DNA of 64,000 bases, from assembly GCA_017434885.1 (NCBI GenBank), contig JAFSGE010000020.1, positions 1 through 64,000 on the forward strand, in the 5' to 3' direction. The notes under the pieces are model-generated. The model was given only the letters and a program-made list of their open reading frames with translations, had not been told where the DNA came from and ran no database searches. The number at the start of each line of letters is the position of its first letter. Within the stretch, counting starts at the first letter, position 1. Made by a program: the position numbers and the translations under genes. Shown here piece after piece: positions 22,925 through 37,581 of this stretch. This DNA is from Lachnospiraceae bacterium. Lineage in GTDB: Bacteria; Bacillota; Clostridia; Lachnospirales; Lachnospiraceae.

Positions 22925-25183
22925 ATGATGAGAACACAAATAAAAGGTAAAATAGCAACAATTTTTATCATGATATTTATTGCAGCGATTATGATTGCAG
23001 GCTGCGGCAAAAAGGAAGAAGAAAGTACGCGGAAGGACTTTTATTATTTGCCGGAGTACCGGGAATTGCCGATAGAGGCAAATTATATTGCAGATTTAGC
23101 CGAAGCTGATGATGTGGTGTACATGATGACCAATTCATGGGATGAAGAAACTTATGAGACAAGTACTGATTTGTACGCATATCATCCGATGGATGAGCAG
23201 TGTGACAAGGTTGCCCTTCCCATTCCGCAGGAATGCAGCGTACAGAGTATGTATGTAAATGACATGGGAAATCTGATTCTGTCTGTTGGCAGATATGAAG
23301 AAAATGCAGAGACAGGAGAATACAAAGAATACAGAGAATTGTGGGAGGTTTCCCCTTCGGATGGCAATATTTTGAATACAAAAGATATTACTGATGCATT
23401 TTCGGCAGCGGAATATTTTTATCCCCAGTACTGCGTGGCAGACAGCAAGGGAACCATATATACCAGTGACGGAAGTGAAAATATTTTTGTGATAGATAAA
23501 GAGGGAACACTGGTTGCACAGATAGCATTGGATGACTGGATAGAAGATTTGTTTGTGGATAAAAATGACAATGCATATATAAAGAAATGGACTTCTGAGG
23601 GCGCCCGGATTATACCGGTAGATGTAAATGCAAAGAAGCTTGGTGACCCGGTAACGGCAGCAAATATTACAAGAGAAGGAAACTCATATAATCAAAAGCA
23701 TTATAAAGGAACCGATACTGATTTGATAATTAGTGACAATACCGGTGTATATACTTATGACTTTGCAACAGACAGTGCAGTAGATGTATTTGAATGGCTG
23801 GATGCGGATATGAACTGTGACAGTGTGCAGGAGATGGGGCTGCTTTCAGACGGAAGATATTGGGTGATGCTACAGGATTATACCGGAGAAAAGCCGGAAT
23901 ACTCCTTTGCCCTATTGACGAAGACTCCGGCATCGGAGGTTCCGGTGAAGGAAGAACTTACCTTTGCAACAATGTACTTGAGTCAGGATATGAGACGTAG
24001 TATTATAGAGTTTAACAAAACAAATGAACAGTATCGTATTCTGGTAAAGGAATACCAGTCGGATGATTACAATGCGGCAATCACACAGTTTAACAATGAT
24101 ATTACCGGAGGAAACTGTCCTGATATCGTAAACATGACAGGTCTTGACTTTGAAAGATATGCAAGTAAAGGTGTGTTGGAGGATTTGTATCCTTTCATGG
24201 AAAAAGACGGTATTAAAAAACAGGACTATCTGGAGAATGTACTGACCGCTTATGAAAAGGACGGAAAACTTTACGGAATTATTCCCCAGTTTGCGATTAA
24301 TTCGGCAGTGATAAAAACTGCAAACGCAAAAGGACAGACAGGATGGACGCTGGATGAAATGCTGACAATAGCAGAGGAAAGCGGTGTGCAGGATGTGTTC
24401 AATTACGGCAGTCAATCGGGGGCATTCCGGTTTTGTGTATTTTATAATATCAATGAATTTATTAATTGGAAAACCGGAGAGTGCTTCTTTAACAGCGAAG
24501 AATTTATGAAGGTGCTTGAGTTTGCTGCAAAATTGCCCAAAGAGCCGGATTATGAAGCGGAGAGCGTGGGACTTTCAGAACGGATTCGGAATGACAAATT
24601 ATTATTATTGGAGAACGGTATCAGTTCCGTGCAGGAATATCAGATGTTGCATACCATGTTTGGGGAGGATATTACTTTTATCGGTTATCCAAACAGTGAG
24701 CGGAAGGGAAATCTGATACGTTCTACAAATACAGATATTGCCATTACCTCAAAGTCCGATAACAAGGAAGCTGCATGGGAATTTGTAAAAGTCTTTTTAT
24801 CCGACGAATATCAGGAGGGACTGGTAAGTGAACATGGCGGTTGGGGATTTCCTATCAAGCGTTCGGCTCTTGAAAAGCAGTTTGAACTGGATATGACACC
24901 GAATTATTATGAAGACGAATCGGGCAATCAGACAGAGAGTCCCAAAACCAGTTGGGGATATGATGATTTCCAGGCGGAAATCTATGCTGCAAAGCAGGAA
25001 GATATCGACGCGGTTATGGAAGTTCTTACATCGGCAGAAAGACCTGCAGGGTCTGTGAACGAGGAGATTATGACCATTATCACAGAGGAGACGGAGGCAT
25101 TTTTCGGCGGACAGAAATCGGCAAAGGAAACAGCAGATATTATCCAGAACCGTGTGAAAATATATGTGAGTGAAAATTCATAA
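22925..25183 (+). CDS. Large extracellular solute-binding lipoprotein
   Basis: This 752-residue protein begins with a lipoprotein signal (hydrophobic IATIFIMIFIAAIMIAGC, lipidated Cys27). Residues ~45-335 look like a beta-propeller-type region rich in aspartate/glycine turns. Residues ~340-750 form a family 1 solute-binding domain (TFATMYLSQDMRRSIIEFNKTNEQY onward; NCPDIVNM; DIAITSKSDNKEAAWEFVK). Binding proteins are usually ~450 residues, so the propeller is extra. It heads a cluster with two permeases, and its closest visible relative is the second half of the chimera at 29172: both end in similar (A/T)FF(G/S)GQK motifs. Confidence 0.85.
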   Translation: MMRTQIKGKIATIFIMIFIAAIMIAGCGKKEEESTRKDFYYLPEYRELPIEANYIADLAEADDVVYMMTNSWDEETYETSTDLYAYHPMDEQCDKVALPIPQECSVQSMYVNDMGNLILSVGRYEENAETGEYKEYRELWEVSPSDGNILNTKDITDAFSAAEYFYPQYCVADSKGTIYTSDGSENIFVIDKEGTLVAQIALDDWIEDLFVDKNDNAYIKKWTSEGARIIPVDVNAKKLGDPVTAANITREGNSYNQKHYKGTDTDLIISDNTGVYTYDFATDSAVDVFEWLDADMNCDSVQEMGLLSDGRYWVMLQDYTGEKPEYSFALLTKTPASEVPVKEELTFATMYLSQDMRRSIIEFNKTNEQYRILVKEYQSDDYNAAITQFNNDITGGNCPDIVNMTGLDFERYASKGVLEDLYPFMEKDGIKKQDYLENVLTAYEKDGKLYGIIPQFAINSAVIKTANAKGQTGWTLDEMLTIAEESGVQDVFNYGSQSGAFRFCVFYNINEFINWKTGECFFNSEEFMKVLEFAAKLPKEPDYEAESVGLSERIRNDKLLLLENGISSVQEYQMLHTMFGEDITFIGYPNSERKGNLIRSTNTDIAITSKSDNKEAAWEFVKVFLSDEYQEGLVSEHGGWGFPIKRSALEKQFELDMTPNYYEDESGNQTESPKTSWGYDDFQAEIYAAKQEDIDAVMEVLTSAERPAGSVNEEIMTIITEETEAFFGGQKSAKETADIIQNRVKIYVSENS

Positions 25184-27121: not shown

Positions 27122-29182
27122 ATGAATGAAAACAAGGCAGTAAAAAGAAGAGACTGGGTAAAAAATGTCGCAATTATTTTCTTGACGGTGATGTTGCTTC
27201 TGACCTTCTTTTCCAATACCATTATGAATTATTCCCTGCCGGAGGTGGCGACAAGATATGTGGAGCCCGGAAGTATTACTGCGAAAGTGCGCGGGACGGG
27301 GAATGTGGAAGCCACAGACCCATATAATGTAATGATGAAAGAATCAAGAGTGATTGCAAGTGTTGCGGTTGCAAAGGGAGACTATGTGGAGAAGGACCAG
27401 GTAATTTATTATCTGGAGGATAAAGAAAGTGAAGAACTTGATAAGGCAAGAGAAGAGTTGGAAGAACTGGAGCTTGCCTATATGAAAGGCATGTTTGGCG
27501 GAACGGTGTCACCGGAGGTAATCAGTAAAGTTGCAAGCGGAAATACAGGAAGCTTTTCCACTTATCAGGCAAAGGTTACTGACATGCAAAACCGTTTGCA
27601 GGCAGCGCAGGACAGAGTAACAGAGTGTCAGAATGCGTTAAACGCATTAAATCTGCAAAGCTCCATCAGCAGCAATGATGCCAGCATCAGCACCATACCG
27701 GATGAACTGGAAAAAGCAGATGCCACGGTTGACCTGGCAAATGCGGAAGAATCTTTTGAAAGAAAAAAGAATAAAAAGATTACAGAAATTAATAAAGAAA
27801 TTACAGAAAAAGAAAAACAGATTGAGGATTTGCAGATATTGATATCCGGTGCACAGGCTATGTCTGCGGGAAGCGTTACAAGCGGAACGGGAAGCAATGC
27901 AGGTAATAACACAGGAAACGGTACGGGAAGCGGAAGTAATGCAGGAAGCAGTTCTTCAGACAGTACAGCATATAACAATGCGGTTGCCGATTTGAATGCA
28001 AAACGCAGTGCGCTTCAATCCATTGGTGCTCCCAGTAATTACGGTATTAATTGGTCTACTGCCTCAGAAGGGGATATTGCAAACTGGTACAATCATTTAC
28101 TGTGGGGAAATATGAGTGCCGATATGCAGAAGGCATGTGAAGCAAAATACGGTGAATACCGTGTGGCGGCAGATACGCTTAACAATATTGTAAGTACACT
28201 TGGCGAATATGGAAGTTCTTATAACAGACAAGGGCAGCTTGAGGCTTTGGAGGATGAACTGGCAGAATTGCAGAACAGACTTGCGGAGGTGGAAGCAATT
28301 ACTGTTTCTTCCAGTGACAGCGTGCAGGATGCTCAGGAGAGATTAGAGCATGCCAACAAAAACATTACGGAAATCACCAGTGCCAATAAGCAGACAGCGG
28401 TGGCATATCAGAATAAAATACTGAATGCAGAGGCAGCATTGAAAAATGCTCAGGCTGTGTACGATTTACTCAGTGAAGAACAAAAAACACTGGCGGCAGA
28501 TATCAATGCGGAGCTTGATTTGTCTAAGGCTAACAAAGATATTGCCGAGAAAAAAGAAGAAATTGCAAAACTGGAGGCAGCGTCTATGGGGGCTGCGGTT
28601 ACGGCACCTGTTGCAGGGCTGATTACGTCTCTTACGTATGTTGCGGGTGAGACTGCGGGAACAGAAGAACCTGCCGCAGTAATTCAGGTGGACGGCAAGG
28701 GATATACTGTCAGCTTCTCCGTAACAAACCAGCAGGCGCAGAAGGTGAAAGTAGGAGATGTGGCAGAATTACAGAACGCATGGTATTACGATGATGTGCA
28801 GGCGATTTTGTCAGCCATTAAACCTGACCCGGAGAGCATGGGACAAAAGAAACTGCTTGTGTTTGATGTGACGGGAAGCAGCCTTACAACAGGTCAGGCA
28901 CTGAATCTTTCTGTAGGACAAAGAAGCGCAGAATATGAGCTTGTGGTGCCCAACAGTGCCATCAGGGAAGACAGTAACGGAAAATTTATTTTAATTGTAG
29001 AGTCCAAAAGCAGTCCTCTCGGAAACCGTTATATTGCCACAAGAGTGGATGTGGAAGTACAGGCATCCGATGACAATAATACAGCTATATCGGCAGGACT
29101 TTACGGATATGAATATGTGATTACCACATCTACCAAGCCGGTAGAAGCAGGAATGCAGGTGAGATTAAGTGATGCGCAGTAA
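27122..29182 (+). CDS. HlyD/MacA-like membrane fusion (adaptor) protein
   Basis: The 686-residue protein has one N-terminal membrane anchor (~14-35), a lipoyl-like hairpin half (GSITAKVRGTGNVEATDPYNV), two long coiled-coil arms (~100-250 and ~380-510) and a return lipoyl half (AAVTAPVAGLITSLTYVAGE) followed by beta-barrel domains. This is the order of RND/MacA-type adaptors. A Gly/Asn/Ser-rich linker at ~255-285 interrupts the arms. Gram-positive adaptors usually pair with MacB-like exporters, and the next gene begins with a MacB-like domain. It overlaps that gene's start by 11 bases. Confidence 0.85.
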   Translation: MNENKAVKRRDWVKNVAIIFLTVMLLLTFFSNTIMNYSLPEVATRYVEPGSITAKVRGTGNVEATDPYNVMMKESRVIASVAVAKGDYVEKDQVIYYLEDKESEELDKAREELEELELAYMKGMFGGTVSPEVISKVASGNTGSFSTYQAKVTDMQNRLQAAQDRVTECQNALNALNLQSSISSNDASISTIPDELEKADATVDLANAEESFERKKNKKITEINKEITEKEKQIEDLQILISGAQAMSAGSVTSGTGSNAGNNTGNGTGSGSNAGSSSSDSTAYNNAVADLNAKRSALQSIGAPSNYGINWSTASEGDIANWYNHLLWGNMSADMQKACEAKYGEYRVAADTLNNIVSTLGEYGSSYNRQGQLEALEDELAELQNRLAEVEAITVSSSDSVQDAQERLEHANKNITEITSANKQTAVAYQNKILNAEAALKNAQAVYDLLSEEQKTLAADINAELDLSKANKDIAEKKEEIAKLEAASMGAAVTAPVAGLITSLTYVAGETAGTEEPAAVIQVDGKGYTVSFSVTNQQAQKVKVGDVAELQNAWYYDDVQAILSAIKPDPESMGQKKLLVFDVTGSSLTTGQALNLSVGQRSAEYELVVPNSAIREDSNGKFILIVESKSSPLGNRYIATRVDVEVQASDDNNTAISAGLYGYEYVITTSTKPVEAGMQVRLSDAQ

Positions 29183-32100
29183 AAAGATGATGTTATCCGC
29201 TGCAGTAGTGATTTGTCTGGTCGTTTATGGTATAATAGTGTTAGGAAGTAACCGGATGATTTCAAAATTATCCGATCAACAGGCTGCAGAACGTTGGGAT
29301 AAGGATGGGAATTATGCACAGGTTACGGCGTTCTTTGCAAAAGGGACAGCGGTGGATGATTTCCAAATCAAAGGATTTGAAAAAAATCTGGAGGCAGCAT
29401 TGGAAGAAGCTGCGGTTGTAAATGAAAATCCGAGCAGCAGACTGTATGTGGATGCTTATAGCGGACAGGGAAAAGTGATAATAGAGAATGGTCAGACATC
29501 AGTGGAAGTAAATGCAGTCGGAATCGGCGGAGATTTTTTTACCTTTCATCCGGTGAAGCTTCTTGACGGCGGATATTTTTCAGGAAATGATCTGATGAAG
29601 GATTCCGTTATCCTTGATAATGAGACTGCATGGAAATTATTCGGTTCTCATGAGATAGAAGGCATGAGTATTATGATTGGCGGCGTGCCTCACTATATTG
29701 CAGGTGTTTATGAGAAAGACGCAGGTCGTTTTTATGAAGCGGCAGGATTAAATGCACCGCTTGTATTTGTGTCTTATGAAACATTAACTGCTTATGGCAG
29801 TGGGGGGAATATCACTGCTTATGAATTGCTTTCACCTAATCCGGTAAAAGGATTTGCGGCAAATGCAGTAAGAGAAAAATTCGGCCTTTCGCAGAATGAA
29901 ATGCAGGTAGTGGAAAATTCTGCACGGTTTTCTGCAGAGGCAATGGTTAGTGTTTCTTTGGATTTTGGAATACGTTCCATGCAGAATGCAGCAATGCAAT
30001 ACCCTTATTGGGAAAATGTTGCAAGGGCATATGAAGATGTCAGGGCACTTTTGTTTATACTGCAGAGTATTTTTTTGCTAATAGCAATGAGTATTGTAAT
30101 TGTGTTTATGGTGATAAAAGGGAGAATCGGATTGAAGAAGGCAGGAAAATTTGTAAAAAGCAGAATGAGTTACTGGTGTTTGTTTGTGTTGTCGGTTGTT
30201 TCTCTTTGCGGCTGCGGAAAAGGAAGTGCATCAGAAGCGGTTACTGCTAATAAAGATTGTATTTACCGGTTGGAAGAAATTCAGCTGAAAGAAGAAAATG
30301 CCGGAGGGTTCAGCCTGTTAAAAAGCGGCGAAGGTTTTTATGCGTACTGCTATAATTATGATGGCGGAAATCCGGGGACAAAAATTGATTTTTACAGCTT
30401 GGATGCAGACGGTGGCATAGGAGAAAAACACACATTATCTTTCGGCGAAAATGCAAGTCCCAATATATTTCGTTCTGATAAGCAGGGGAATCTTTATGTA
30501 ATTGAAAATGTGTATGCTACGGAACCGGATGAAAATGGTGTTTATACGGATAAATATTATCTTTTAAAAATGACGGTGCAGGGAGAAGAACTGTTTCGTA
30601 TCTGCCTTAATGATTTGAAAGAGCTGGAAGGACTTGTATCAGACGGATATTTTTATGCCGGTGATATGCTTCTGTCGGATACAAGCATCTATTTGAATAT
30701 TGCAGGAAAGTATGCCGAATTTGATGTTGACGGAAACTTCGTGAAAATCATAAACGCGGAAGGACTTGACGGTGCCCAGCTGTTATTACTGGAAAACGGA
30801 AAGATTGCAGCGGTAACGTATGAGGATAACGGTGTATATGCTTCTTATGCAGATTTGGAAACGGGAACCTTTTCCGATAAAGCCAAATTACCCGGAACGT
30901 CATATGAATATTCGGTTTATCCGGGAATCGGTTACGATTTGTATCTGGTGAATTATTACGGAGTTTACGGATATAATGTGGGAGAAGAAGAAAAGACACA
31001 GTTAATGAATTACATTGACTCCGATTTGGGAATGACTAATGTGTTTAATCTGGTTCCCATCAGTGAGACAGAATTTTTTGCTTCCTATGACGATATGGAA
31101 ACTTATGACATACTGGTTGGTAAATTTACCAAAGTAATGCCTGAGGATGTAAAAGAGAAAAAGGTGCTTGTGCTTGCCTGCAACGGATTAGATTGGGAAA
31201 TCCGAAGGGCAGTGGTTCAGTTCAACAAAAGCAATGAAGAATGTCGGATTAGTATAGAAGATTATGCATCACTGTACGGAGTGGAAAATGATTATATGGC
31301 AAGTGTGAACCGGCTGAATAATGATATTATTTCCGGGAAAGTGCCTGATATTTTAGTGGTGGATTCCAATATGCCGGTAGAAAGCTATATTGCAAAAGGG
31401 CTGTTTGAAGATTTGAAACCTTACGTGGAAGCAGACCCTGAACTTGATATGAATGATTTTATGCCAAATATTATTGAGGCATTTTCCACAGACGGAAAGT
31501 GGTATCAGATGGTTCCGTCATATTCAATATATACCTTGGTGGCAAGACAGAGTGATGTGGGAGAAGAATGTGGATGGACCATCGGGGAAGCAGTCCGGCT
31601 TTTGGATTCCAAGCCGGAAGGAACTGAATTTTTGACATTTACCACAAGAGACAGTGTGCTTTTAAGCAGTATTACCATGGCGGGAAATCAGTTTATTGAT
31701 TGGGAAAGCGGAAAATGCAGTTTTGATTCGGAAGGCTTTATTGAATTACTTCATTTTGCAAATCGGTTTCCGGAAGAAGGAAATGAAGTTTATACAGAAG
31801 ACTTCTGGATGAATTATGATGCTATGTGGAGAGAGGGCAAGGTGATTTGCCAGATTACCAATATTTCTGATTTCAGAAATTATAACTATGTTGCAAAAGG
31901 AAGTTTTGGGGAACCGATTACCATGATAGGCTTTCCTTCAGAGAATGAAGAGGGAACTGCGATTATGCCGGGGATGAGACTTGCCATGTCAGCTAAATCC
32001 AAAAATAAGGAAGGGACATTTGCATTTATGCGGTATTTCCTGACAGATGAATATCAAAAGTCACTTTCCTACGGACTTCCGCTTAGTATGAAACAAATGG

Positions 32101-32405
32101 ATGTTATGGCTGAGGAAGCTATGAAGGTACCTACCTATACAGATGAGAACGGTGTTGAAGTGGAATCACCGGAGTTGTATTATATCGGTGATACGGAAAT
32201 TGAAATTGCGCCGATGACAAAAGAAGAAGTGGCAAGACTGAAAGAAGACATAAGCAGTGTCAGTCATGTATACAGTTATAATGAAAATCTGATTCAGATT
32301 ATTCAGGAAGAAGTAGCAGCATTTTTCAGCGGACAAAAAACAGCAGAGGAAGTTGCAGGAATTGTTCAAAGCAGAGCGCAGATTTATGTAAATGAAAACA
32401 GATAA
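29172..32405 (+). CDS. Chimeric protein: MacB-like periplasmic core fused to a solute-binding lipoprotein
   Basis: One uninterrupted frame of 1077 residues holds two modules. Residues 1-~316 resemble the front part of a MacB/FtsX permease: helix 1 (~8-28), an extracellular MacB_PCD-like domain (VNAVGIGGDFFTFHPVKLLDGGYFS, VILDNETAWKLFG), then helix 2 (~290-315). The last helices of such permeases are missing. After a basic loop (KGRIGLKKAGKFVKSR) comes a perfect lipoprotein signal (YWCLFVLSVVSLCGC; Cys348), then a propeller-like region and a binding domain related to the lipoprotein at 22925. Topology would suit a real fusion, cleaved or not. An internal TTG at 30132 could instead start a separate lipoprotein. 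Confidence 0.75.
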   Translation: MRSKKMMLSAAVVICLVVYGIIVLGSNRMISKLSDQQAAERWDKDGNYAQVTAFFAKGTAVDDFQIKGFEKNLEAALEEAAVVNENPSSRLYVDAYSGQGKVIIENGQTSVEVNAVGIGGDFFTFHPVKLLDGGYFSGNDLMKDSVILDNETAWKLFGSHEIEGMSIMIGGVPHYIAGVYEKDAGRFYEAAGLNAPLVFVSYETLTAYGSGGNITAYELLSPNPVKGFAANAVREKFGLSQNEMQVVENSARFSAEAMVSVSLDFGIRSMQNAAMQYPYWENVARAYEDVRALLFILQSIFLLIAMSIVIVFMVIKGRIGLKKAGKFVKSRMSYWCLFVLSVVSLCGCGKGSASEAVTANKDCIYRLEEIQLKEENAGGFSLLKSGEGFYAYCYNYDGGNPGTKIDFYSLDADGGIGEKHTLSFGENASPNIFRSDKQGNLYVIENVYATEPDENGVYTDKYYLLKMTVQGEELFRICLNDLKELEGLVSDGYFYAGDMLLSDTSIYLNIAGKYAEFDVDGNFVKIINAEGLDGAQLLLLENGKIAAVTYEDNGVYASYADLETGTFSDKAKLPGTSYEYSVYPGIGYDLYLVNYYGVYGYNVGEEEKTQLMNYIDSDLGMTNVFNLVPISETEFFASYDDMETYDILVGKFTKVMPEDVKEKKVLVLACNGLDWEIRRAVVQFNKSNEECRISIEDYASLYGVENDYMASVNRLNNDIISGKVPDILVVDSNMPVESYIAKGLFEDLKPYVEADPELDMNDFMPNIIEAFSTDGKWYQMVPSYSIYTLVARQSDVGEECGWTIGEAVRLLDSKPEGTEFLTFTTRDSVLLSSITMAGNQFIDWESGKCSFDSEGFIELLHFANRFPEEGNEVYTEDFWMNYDAMWREGKVICQITNISDFRNYNYVAKGSFGEPITMIGFPSENEEGTAIMPGMRLAMSAKSKNKEGTFAFMRYFLTDEYQKSLSYGLPLSMKQMDVMAEEAMKVPTYTDENGVEVESPELYYIGDTEIEIAPMTKEEVARLKEDISSVSHVYSYNENLIQIIQEEVAAFFSGQKTAEEVAGIVQSRAQIYVNENR
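30120..30134 (+). promoter_or_regulatory. Candidate internal ribosome site and TTG start for the lipoprotein half
   Basis: GGGAG at about 30120-30124 lies seven bases before an in-frame TTG (30132-30134). Starting here gives MKKAGKFVKSRM followed by a hydrophobic stretch and the lipobox SLCGC (Cys28), a textbook lipoprotein signal peptide. Another in-frame ATG is at 30165. This suggests two overlapping products from one frame. Confidence 0.5.
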
Positions 32406-32427: not shown

Positions 32428-33702
32428 ATGAGCCAGTTGAAACCTCAAAAAAGTTTATACGGAAAACTGTTGGCGATGACATTGACGCCCTTGCTGGTGC
32501 TTGCAGTGGTCATCACTTCCTTTAGTGCGCATAGCTTTGCCAATACAATGAATGAGGAAGTAAAGAAAGGGTTAATGGATTTAAACTCCACAATTCTGAC
32601 TTTGTATGATCATTTATATCCCGGAGACTATACGGTAGTAGAGCAGGACGGAGCACTTTATCTGCTGAAGGGAGAACATCAGATAAACGGCGATTTCTCC
32701 ATTATCGATACGATTAAGAAAAATACGGGAGTGGATGTGACTTTCTTTTACAGGGATATCAGAGTGATTACCACACTGACAGGAAGTGACGGAAACAGAA
32801 TGATAGGAACAAAAGTAAATGCTGTGGTTACAAGAGATGTCTTAGAGACCGGAGAGGCAGCATTTTATCCCAGCGTGGCGATCGGAGAAAACAATTACTT
32901 TGCATATTATGCGCCGGTGATTAATTCGGACGGTAGTGTTATGGGGATGCTGTTTGTGGCAAAGCCTACGGAAGAAGTGTACAAAAGTGTGATAAAATCT
33001 GTTTTGCCGATTGTTTTGCTTGGTTTGGTTGCAATGTTACTGGCTGCTGTTATTACCATACGTTTCAGCAGACAGCTTATTGATGCAATTAAAAAGATAC
33101 AGTCGTTTCTTGCAAAAGTTGCAAAGGGAAATCTGAGAGATGTTCTTGATTATGATGTGGCAAAGAGAAATGATGAACTGGGTGAAATGGGACGCTATGC
33201 AGTTACCATGCAGAAGGCGTTGATTGAACAGGTGGAAAAGGATGCGTTGACCGGACTTTACAACAGAAGATACGCGGAAAAGAAAATCAGGGAAGTGCAA
33301 AATGCACAACTGGATGAATTTAATGTTGCTTTGGGCGATATTGATTTCTTCAAAAAAGTCAACGACACTTACGGGCATGAATGCGGAGATGTTGTGCTGA
33401 GCCGTGTGGCAGGTATTCTCGGTAAGAATATGCGCGGAAAAGGATTTGTAGCCAGATGGGGTGGGGAAGAATTTTTGCTGGTATTTGAAAACAGTGTTTT
33501 TGAAGATTCGGTAGATATGCTTACTCACATTTTGGAAGAAATCAGAAGGGAAGAGATTTTCTATAAAGGAAAAATTGTCCGTATTACCATGACATTTGGT
33601 ATTTGCAAGGGTAACACGGACAATGTAGACTTACTGATTCGTGAAGCAGACAGTAAGCTTTATGAAGGAAAAAATAACGGAAGAAATCAAATCGTACAAT
33701 AG
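32428..33702 (+). CDS. Membrane diguanylate cyclase with extracellular Cache-like sensor
   Basis: The 424-residue protein makes cyclic di-GMP. Helices at ~14-34 and ~190-213 flank an extracellular single-Cache-like sensor (STILTLYDHLYPGDYT, IGTKVNAVVTRDVLETG). A HAMP-like segment leads to a GGDEF domain starting DALTGLYNRRYAEK, with the active loop GGEEF (345-349). The product-inhibition site expected as RxxD five residues before the loop reads RGKG (336-339), so feedback inhibition is probably lost. It follows the chimera by 22 bases and may sense the same substrate. Its end overlaps the convergent hydrolase gene by 16 bases. Confidence 0.92.
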   Translation: MSQLKPQKSLYGKLLAMTLTPLLVLAVVITSFSAHSFANTMNEEVKKGLMDLNSTILTLYDHLYPGDYTVVEQDGALYLLKGEHQINGDFSIIDTIKKNTGVDVTFFYRDIRVITTLTGSDGNRMIGTKVNAVVTRDVLETGEAAFYPSVAIGENNYFAYYAPVINSDGSVMGMLFVAKPTEEVYKSVIKSVLPIVLLGLVAMLLAAVITIRFSRQLIDAIKKIQSFLAKVAKGNLRDVLDYDVAKRNDELGEMGRYAVTMQKALIEQVEKDALTGLYNRRYAEKKIREVQNAQLDEFNVALGDIDFFKKVNDTYGHECGDVVLSRVAGILGKNMRGKGFVARWGGEEFLLVFENSVFEDSVDMLTHILEEIRREEIFYKGKIVRITMTFGICKGNTDNVDLLIREADSKLYEGKNNGRNQIVQ

Positions 33703-35259: not shown

Positions 35260-35370
35260 TTTTTACAATACGCATTAATCTGGTATAAAAAATGCACAAA
35301 TATATTTAAAAAAAGTTAAAAGTATTGTATAATATAACTTAACAACGTGCAGAGGATAGGAGGAGAAAAA

Positions 35371-37581
35371 GTGAAAATACAGATTCCAAAAGCGAAAAAA
35401 GAAAAGACACCGAAAGTTCCAAAAGCTCCTAAAGCGCCGAAACTTCCGAAAGAAAAGAAGGAAGGAAAACTGCCGGTTGGGAAAAAGGCGAAAACAGACG
35501 GAAAGCAGAAACAGAATATAGCGAATGGTAAGCAGTCGGGATTTATGCTGTTCGGTATTCAGAATAAAATTGTTTTGTGCTTTTTGATTCCTATGATTTT
35601 TATGATTGTAATCGGATTGTCAGCTTATCAGAAAGCTGCAGGCGGTATGAGTCAGAAATTTCAGGAGTCAACCATTCAGACCATTGATATGGTGAATGAG
35701 TACATAGACATGAGCTGTGCGTTTGTGGAATCGGAAGGTATGAAGTTTGCTTTTGATGCCAATGTAGGAAAATACCTGAACGGTTCTGTTGAGAATGATC
35801 CGGTAGAAAAGATGAATGTGCTGAATGCCATTCAGGATGATCTGTTATCTGCACAGACCACAAACTCTTTCATTGACAATATACATATTGTAACCAAAGA
35901 AAACGTAAGCATGCTTACCACCGGAACAAGTACCAGTATCAAAGGTAATTTGTCTGAGTATCAGGAATTAATGTCGGCCGGTGCAAGAGGTGTAGTGAAG
36001 TGGGTAGATGACCATCAGATGCTGGAAGATTATCTGGCACTGAAAACAACAGACTATATTTTGGCTTACCAGACAATGACTAAATCCAACAACGGATGTA
36101 TTGTTATTGATGTTAAGGAATCTACCATTAGGGAATTTCTTGCAGATTTGGATTTCGGCGAGGGTAGTATTGTGGGTTTTGTTACTGCAAACGGCAAGGA
36201 AGTTATTGCAGAGCCTTTGGAAGAAGGACAGAGCAGCAGCGTTGCAGAAGGGGAAATTGTATTTTTTGATAAAGATTTCTTTTCACAGATTTCCGAAGAG
36301 AATCTTCAAGGGTCCGGAGAAGTAAAGTTTAGAAACGAAGATTTTTTGTTTATGTATTCCAGAAGTGAAGAGACGGGAGCTACCGTTTGTGCATTGGTTC
36401 CCATGAAAGTAATCACCGGACAGGCACAGGAAATTAAGAGCCTTACATTCGGACTGATTCTTCTTGCCAGTGTGATTGCCCTTGGAGTTGGTATTTCCAC
36501 CGTAATGGGAATACAGAATAACATGAAACGTATCTCCAAGAAATTCGGCGAAGTAGCCAAAGGCGATCTGACTGTAGAAATCACGGCAAAAGGCCGCGAC
36601 GAGTTCCAGGGACTTGCCGGTTCGGCAACACATATGATTGTAAATACCAAGAAACTGGTAAATAAAGTAACCAATGCCACAGAACAGCTGGAAGAATCCT
36701 CCAAGGGTGTTGAAGAAGCATCTGTTGTTATTAATGAATATTCAAACGAAATTACCAGAGCAATCAACGAAATCAACGAAGGTATCAGCAGACAGTCCAG
36801 ACATGCACAGCAGTGCGTGGAACTGACAGATGTGCTTTCCGATGATATTCAGCAGGTCAGCCGTGTGGTAGAAACAGTTGAGAAACTGGTTGACAGAACA
36901 GAACAGATGATTGAACAGGGTATTGAAATTGTAAAAGTACTTGGTGACAGGGCACATGAAACCACCGAAATGACTGCTCAGGTATCTGATAGTATTGTAG
37001 CGCTTAAGAAAGAATCGGAAATTATCAATACTTTCGTAGAAACCATTACATCAATTTCTTCTCAGACCAATCTGCTTTCCTTAAATGCTTCCATAGAAGC
37101 GGCAAGTGCAGGAGAAGCGGGAAGAGGCTTTGCGGTAGTTGCGGAAGAAATCCGTAAGCTGGCAGATGATTCTGCGCAGGCGGCAGGACAAATCAGAAAT
37201 AATGTTGCCAATATCGGTTCCCAGACGGCACAGAGTGTTGCCGTTGCCAATGAGGCACAGTCCATGGTTGCTCTGCAGACACAGGCAGTAGAAAAAGTGG
37301 TTACTGTGTTTGACGACATGCGTAAGCAGATGAATCAGCTGATTCAGGGCCTGAAAGATATTGTCGAAAATACTGAGAAGGCTGATGGTGAGAGAAGTGA
37401 TACCGTGGAAGCGGTAAAGGACATTTCCAATATTATTGAAGAGACAGCCGGCAGTGCGGAAATTGTAAAAGACATGGCTGAGAAACTTCTTGCCAATGTG
37501 GAAAAATTAAATAATACGGCAGATGTTCTCGGAGAAAACATGAAAGAACTTAAGACAGAAATTTCTGTCTTCAAGATATAA
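35371..37581 (+). CDS. Methyl-accepting chemotaxis protein with Lys/Pro-rich N-terminal extension
   Basis: The receptor starts at GTG 35371, five bases after AGGAGGAG. Residues 1-~57 are a basic cytoplasmic head with PK repeats ([16 protein letters not shown]). Helix 1 (~66-86) and helix 2 (~350-372) flank an extracellular Cache-like sensor, followed by HAMP and a long coiled-coil signalling domain with the conserved hairpin [18 protein letters not shown] and [13 protein letters not shown]. It is 736 residues long. The basic head is not usual for these receptors. With CheV it supports a chemotaxis array; its closeness to the pectin operon suggests sugar sensing, which is inference. Confidence 0.9.

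Follow-up and report, generated by a model that had tools for sequence, protein, structure and literature searches.

In-frame joining of a MacB-like core and a solute-binding lipoprotein at the end of a putative importer operon in Lachnospiraceae

The stretch of DNA analysed here, hereafter the window, comprises the first 64,000 nucleotides of contig JAFSGE010000020.1 from a Lachnospiraceae bacterium (assembly GCA_017434885.1). Its forward strand carries an operon of the order SBP1-P1-P2-HlyD-front-SBP2, in which the last two members, front and SBP2, are encoded by a single gene (29172..32405). SBP1 (22925..25183), the first solute-binding protein (SBP) of the operon, contains an SBP_bac_8 domain and is 28% identical to SBP2. 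P1 (25224..26177) and P2 (26174..27103) are importer permeases with BPD_transp_1 domains; P1 resembles UgpA, GlcT and MalF, with matches below the NCBIfam cut-offs. The gene for a HlyD/MacA-like adaptor (27122..29182) lies directly upstream of the fused open reading frame (ORF) and overlaps it. This adaptor matches HlyD_3 above the cut-off, RND_mfp below the NCBIfam cut-off, and MFP, EmrA and MacA chains, as expected of an adaptor with an HlyD domain and a coiled coil.

The fused gene is open over 1077 codons from the ATG at 29172, with the GTG at 29169 as a possible alternative start. A Pfam scan of the ORFs of the window (E<=1e-3) identified MacB_PCD at residues 37-208 of the product (29280..29795; E 7e-9) and SBP_bac_8 at residues 707-966 (31290..32069; E 5e-16), and detected no FtsX domain. 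The front half (residues 1-320; 29172..30131) contains hydrophobic segments that begin, by hydropathy, near residues 6 and 293; the second corresponds to helix 2 (approximately residues 293-311; 30048..30104), just ahead of which lies a PYWEN motif (30003..30017). The chains in the Protein Data Bank matched by the front profile are MacB and, weakly, YknZ. Together, these profile and hydropathy comparisons show a front half consisting of a MacB-type external core between two predicted helices, without the FtsX C-terminus, that is, a motor-less MacB-like core.

The second half begins with a predicted lipoprotein signal peptide (30132..30212) composed of a basic n-region, a hydrophobic core and a lipobox, LCGC (residues 345-348; 30204..30215), with Cys348 as the predicted lipidated residue. 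A first-pass annotation of the window had described the ORF as a MacB-like core fused in a single frame to a complete lipoprotein, and all these features agree with that description. The N-terminal half of SBP2 (30216..31271) yields weak propeller-like matches (among 37 members, PQQ_2 in 2, and a WDR75 propeller and Kelch in one each), so that a propeller fold is a guess based on weak matches. The best solved matches of the SBP2 profile include CbpC (7x0o, E 7e-30), Lmo0181 and YesO, as well as an iron-binding protein; because oligosaccharide-binding proteins are among these best matches, the ligand of SBP2 is likely to be an oligosaccharide.

Search with the whole protein produced a match in 34 of the 35 other genomes of the same genus, and the region was taken from each of these 34. 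Together with the window, this gives 35 same-genus loci, 34 of which contain the front half, the exception being G010, which is at a contig end. The two halves are fused in 3 of these 34 loci, namely, the window, G016 and G026, the latter two fusions being 57% and 60% identical to that of the window, respectively; the first-pass annotation had proposed looking for the same fusion in related genomes, and there it is. In the other 31 loci, the halves are split, and the front protein is a separate ORF of 330-383 codons. G007, G011, G018 and other relatives with both halves in the same frame were considered as additional fusions and rejected given that stop codons separate the halves. A wider set of 80 loci was retained from the 175 relatives that an alignment-based scan of genome contigs detected; a scan with a single sequence found no match. 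The kept loci come mostly from Lachnospiraceae or genera thereof, and many are from the same species as the same-genus set. The halves are split in 78 of the 80, and the two fused loci are again G016 and G026; among the front matches listed in genomes of the family, no other lies in an open frame longer than 559 codons.

The three fused loci cluster in trees of P1-P2-HlyD (0.74), front (0.986) and SBP2 (0.996). They also cluster in a five-protein IQ-TREE phylogeny, with a support of 65 as printed after re-rooting, where their sister is the split locus of G005. A single origin of the fusion followed by its retention is the simplest reading of these sequence-based trees, and the fusion, confined to one small group, is a derived condition rather than the heart of the system. 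The long tail of the front protein is missing in the fused species and also in the split species G003, G005, G017 and G022, which have shorter front proteins. In 25 of the 31 split same-genus loci, the front protein ends in a W-x-x-F motif; this motif may be conserved at the DNA level because it overlaps the SBP2 ribosome-binding site or start codon in some loci, for example, L040, L042 and L065. Start codons of split SBP2 genes were assigned as those with the best Shine-Dalgarno (SD) sequence; 25 could be placed, and the remaining genes were truncated or gave no match to the lipobox pattern. In 7 of the 25, SBP2 starts 16 bases before the front gene ends, and in another 2 the overlap is 4 bases; therefore, close coupling of front and SBP2 is also seen in many split species. 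We infer that a small insertion or deletion at such an overlap would suffice to join the frames.

Within the fused gene, the signal peptide is preceded by GGGAGA (30120..30125), which encodes Gly-Arg and is a candidate internal SD sequence. Six bases further on, at one aligned codon in all three fused species, is a start codon, TTG in the window (30132..30134) and ATG in G016 and G026. The first-pass annotation had suggested that SBP2 could be made separately from TTG 30132 with a GGGAG site (spacer of 7 bases in the window), and retention of SD and start codon in 3 of 3 fused species favours this suggestion. The position of the SD glycine codon is occupied by tryptophan in 30 of the 31 split species; the codon is GGG in all three fused species, where GGG accounts for 7-10% of glycine codons. 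The predicted energy of the internal SD is -8.4 to -8.6 kcal/mol in all three, slightly weaker than that of the split SBP2 starts (median -9.7, n=25, each at its best SD). Of the 23 aligned columns in which all three fused species have a start codon, that of the internal start alone reaches an SD energy of -6 or better in each of them. Two products of the fused gene, a precursor and an SBP2 from the internal start, are thus likely, as far as conservation of these signals can indicate.

The association of the front protein with importer genes is far more general than the fusion. P1-P2-HlyD lie directly upstream of front in all 68 loci of the 80-locus set with more than 6 kb of upstream sequence, and the median gaps along P1-P2-HlyD-front are -3, 31.5 and 18 bases. 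SBP2 is the next gene after front in 71 of 72 loci with room for it, the exception being L158. We also analysed 20 more divergent loci, 18 of which carry a front gene of this type (8 of these 18 come from families other than that of the window), whereas the other two, L208 and L209, are true MacB types with an FtsX domain. P1-P2-HlyD again directly precede front in 17 of the 17 that are not cut by a contig end. The tie between an exporter-type core and adaptor and importer components that the first-pass annotation had proposed is thus supported, but it belongs to the whole operon, and the fusion (3 of 34 loci) is not central to it. In a signature-only test for an ABC ATPase, LSGG[QEM] did not occur inside the P1-SBP2 span of any of the 80 loci; it occurs somewhere in 11 of the 80 stretches. 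Matches to the front profile were found in 30 of 299 genomes of the family, 25 of 391 of the class and 17 of 299 of the phylum; the class and phylum tallies overstate the distribution of the system because two of the weak phylum matches inspected (L208 and L209) are ordinary MacB types.

We scanned 97 front proteins, comprising that of the window, 78 from the 80-locus set and 18 from the divergent loci, with a threshold of E<=0.01 for FtsX. MacB_PCD was found in 96 of the 97, including all 34 same-genus proteins, and FtsX in none of the 97 and none of the 34, compared with both MacB-type controls (L208 and L209). Accordingly, of the combined observation that the first-pass annotation had regarded as speaking against it, orthologues always split and with a full FtsX permease in their front half, the first part holds for most loci, whereas the second was found in none of the 97 front proteins. 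Hydropathy analysis of 78 front proteins revealed two segments in 67, three in 10, and one in a single, truncated protein. One front protein (L194:9587-10918, family f105) has apparent extra hydrophobic segments after helix 2, with a MacB_PCD match and no FtsX. The proline and glutamate of PYWEN are invariant in all 97 proteins, with variants of the motif in distant ones, but 78 of these 97 loci were found partly by the motif itself, so that the unbiased count is the 34 of 34 same-genus proteins. The identity of P2 to its counterparts is 57-68% for five operons from other families and 66-74% for two divergent operons from its own family, compared with 23-29% for 12 other matches in the window genome; in the same comparison of operons, HlyD and front show 22-45% identity over the aligned parts. 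By these identities, P2 is a permease lineage of its own.

Taken together, we estimate with a probability of roughly 0.6 that the ORF arose by natural in-frame joining of the two terminal genes of a conserved importer operon, that its product is a processed precursor supplemented by translation from an internal start, and that HlyD and front form an accessory of the importer. Ribosomes starting at 29172 would make the 1077-residue precursor, with a short N-terminus inside, helix 1, the core outside, helix 2, a Lys/Arg-rich loop inside and then the lipoprotein signal, the cleavage site of which would face outside. The topology with a basic loop between helix 2 and the lipobox helix, considered workable in the first-pass annotation, is compatible with the predicted segments. 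Lgt and LspA could then process the precursor at Cys348, releasing a lipid-anchored binding protein and a front protein that would retain the signal as its third helix. Ribosomes starting at 30132 would provide further SBP2. The basic n-region, hydrophobic core and lipobox are kept in all three fused species (LTGC in G016 and LSGC in G026), and the window genome has two LspA-type matches (G000:C25 and G000:C26).

Several observations weigh against this interpretation. The fused species share ancestry, and the fusion does not represent three independent events. With the exception of about 2 codons, the whole fusion is also part of either one or the other separate product, so that its conservation is no proof of a use for the joined form. 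The internal start is nearly equalled by two other start-codon columns (-5.5/-6.4/-5.8 and -6.3/-5.8/-8.2), and SD energies at ordinary gene starts of the fused loci span 0.8 to -10.8; hence, the SD energy is not decisive. When synonymous codons were shuffled freely, an SD as strong arose in 486, 7299 and 903 of 20000 trials, so that this test supports the internal start in two species and is weak for G016 (7299); for this reason, we place the emphasis on the scan of aligned starts, itself limited by the two near misses. We are not aware of any experimentally examined protein in which LspA cleaves behind two helices. Finally, SBP2 follows front in 8 of the 18 divergent loci; from the gene orders in these loci, the core of the system is P1-P2-HlyD-front, with the SBP more loosely placed.

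The same features allow other readings of the fused gene. The three stop-free frames, the conserved lipobox, the LspA-type genes and the weak codon shuffle for G016 would all suit a polyprotein in which the internal start is idle and SBP2 arises solely through LspA cleavage, at a 1:1 ratio of front to SBP. We consider this unlikely given the retention of an SD and a start codon at one aligned position in all three species, with a strength somewhat below that of the split SBP2 starts. A precursor that remains uncut, with SBP2 staying joined to the front half, would be in line with the single open frame and with permease-SBP fusions, such as OpuA and GlnPQ; retention of a full lipobox in each of the fused species makes it highly improbable. 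A sequencing or assembly error or a decaying gene might be suspected given that 31 of 34 relatives have two genes, but three assemblies share the fusion at 57-60% identity, and 67 of the 78 front columns that are invariant in the 31 split loci stay invariant when the fused three are added; we reject this explanation, to which we assign a negligible probability. The preferred reading, in which both the LspA-cleavable precursor and additional SBP2 from the internal start are made, remains the most likely on these signals.

As to the function of the system, passages of a published account of MacB (PMC5985334) describe the first two helices of each monomer as the central bundle under the external domain, with the third and fourth packing outside, and the MacA ring as sitting on the external domain. 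Because only the first two helices and the core are present in the front protein, we interpret it as a MacB-type base, devoid of the motor, on which HlyD would stand and which would serve P1-P2. The MacA-like adaptor would sit on this core outside the membrane, a contact proposed from that of MacA-MacB, and the resulting accessory of the P1-P2 importer would hold or guide the binding proteins or the oligosaccharide ligand. ATP would be provided through P1-P2 by a MalK/MsmX-type ATPase encoded elsewhere; the window genome contains two TOBE_2 matches elsewhere.

The opposite assignment, that HlyD and front form an exporter whose ATPase and permease are encoded elsewhere and for which the importer genes are mere neighbours, has precedent in the export role of HlyD and MacB cores in known systems, as described in the same passages (PMC5985334), and 12 FtsX matches are present elsewhere in the genome. 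We regard it as improbable in view of the contiguity with P1-P2 in all 68 assessable loci of the wider set and all 17 divergent ones, the absence of FtsX from all 97 front proteins, and the separate lineage of the accompanying P2. Because P1-P2-HlyD are conserved ahead of front and P2 is such a lineage, HlyD and the motor-less MacB core are probably dedicated parts of the importer. A more far-reaching proposal is a class of ABC importers in which a motor-less MacB core with a MacA-like hexameric funnel through the wall hands an oligosaccharide to the SBPs and, in one group, core and SBP are made as a precursor split by lipoprotein signal peptidase; this is tentative, and we lean against rather than towards it.

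The families of the individual parts are known, and each has relatives in described systems. With the MacB-type (type VII ABC) systems MacAB and YknXYZ, the operon shares a MacB_PCD core after the first helix and a MacA-like adaptor; unlike in those systems, there is no FtsX domain and no ATPase signature in the operon, and importer permeases adjoin wherever the locus extends far enough to reveal them. Two BPD_transp_1 permeases and SBP_bac_8 proteins are shared with CUT1-type oligosaccharide importers (UgpAE/MalFG-like; CbpC, YesO), and an ATPase encoded elsewhere is common in CUT1-type systems of Firmicutes. The differences are the dedicated HlyD adaptor and MacB-like core, and SBPs that have an additional N-terminal half (about 350 residues). 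The chimeric importers OpuA and GlnPQ likewise carry a binding protein in frame with a membrane protein, whereas here, it is joined to an accessory core rather than a permease and comes with a lipoprotein signal and an internal start of its own. Importers of the MCE type (Mla, Pqi and Let) combine importer permeases with a ring- or tube-forming external protein, but these are unrelated protein families involved in lipid transport across other envelopes. Neither the operon nor an internal lipobox was found described in the open-licence literature, as judged by titles and the openings of abstracts, and both the combination of parts and the fused form are new to us.

Further variation and neighbouring genes were observed at these loci. 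HlyD is broken into two ORFs in G030 and G024, as is SBP2 in G022 (loci L061, L055 and L053), by either error or decay. Two tandem SBP1-type genes precede P1 in L099, L107, L113, L118, L130, L132, L140 and L162. Directly after the operon, in the window (32428..33702, forward strand) and many relatives, lies a gene for a Cache-GGDEF sensor diguanylate cyclase, with an MCP gene further on in some (35347-37581 in the window). The Cache-GGDEF gene is probably not part of the transporter; such neighbours suggest that the ligand of the operon is also sensed.

HlyD adaptors and MacB cores are usually treated as parts of export or mechanotransmission systems. The fused species offer a natural setting in which to ask whether a lipoprotein signal located behind two membrane helices can be processed by Lgt and LspA. 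More broadly, an importer-tied HlyD adaptor and MacB core, found over several families and devoid of the motor, suggest a role in uptake through the thick wall, in which case labels such as 'efflux adaptor' and 'ABC transporter permease' would mislead.

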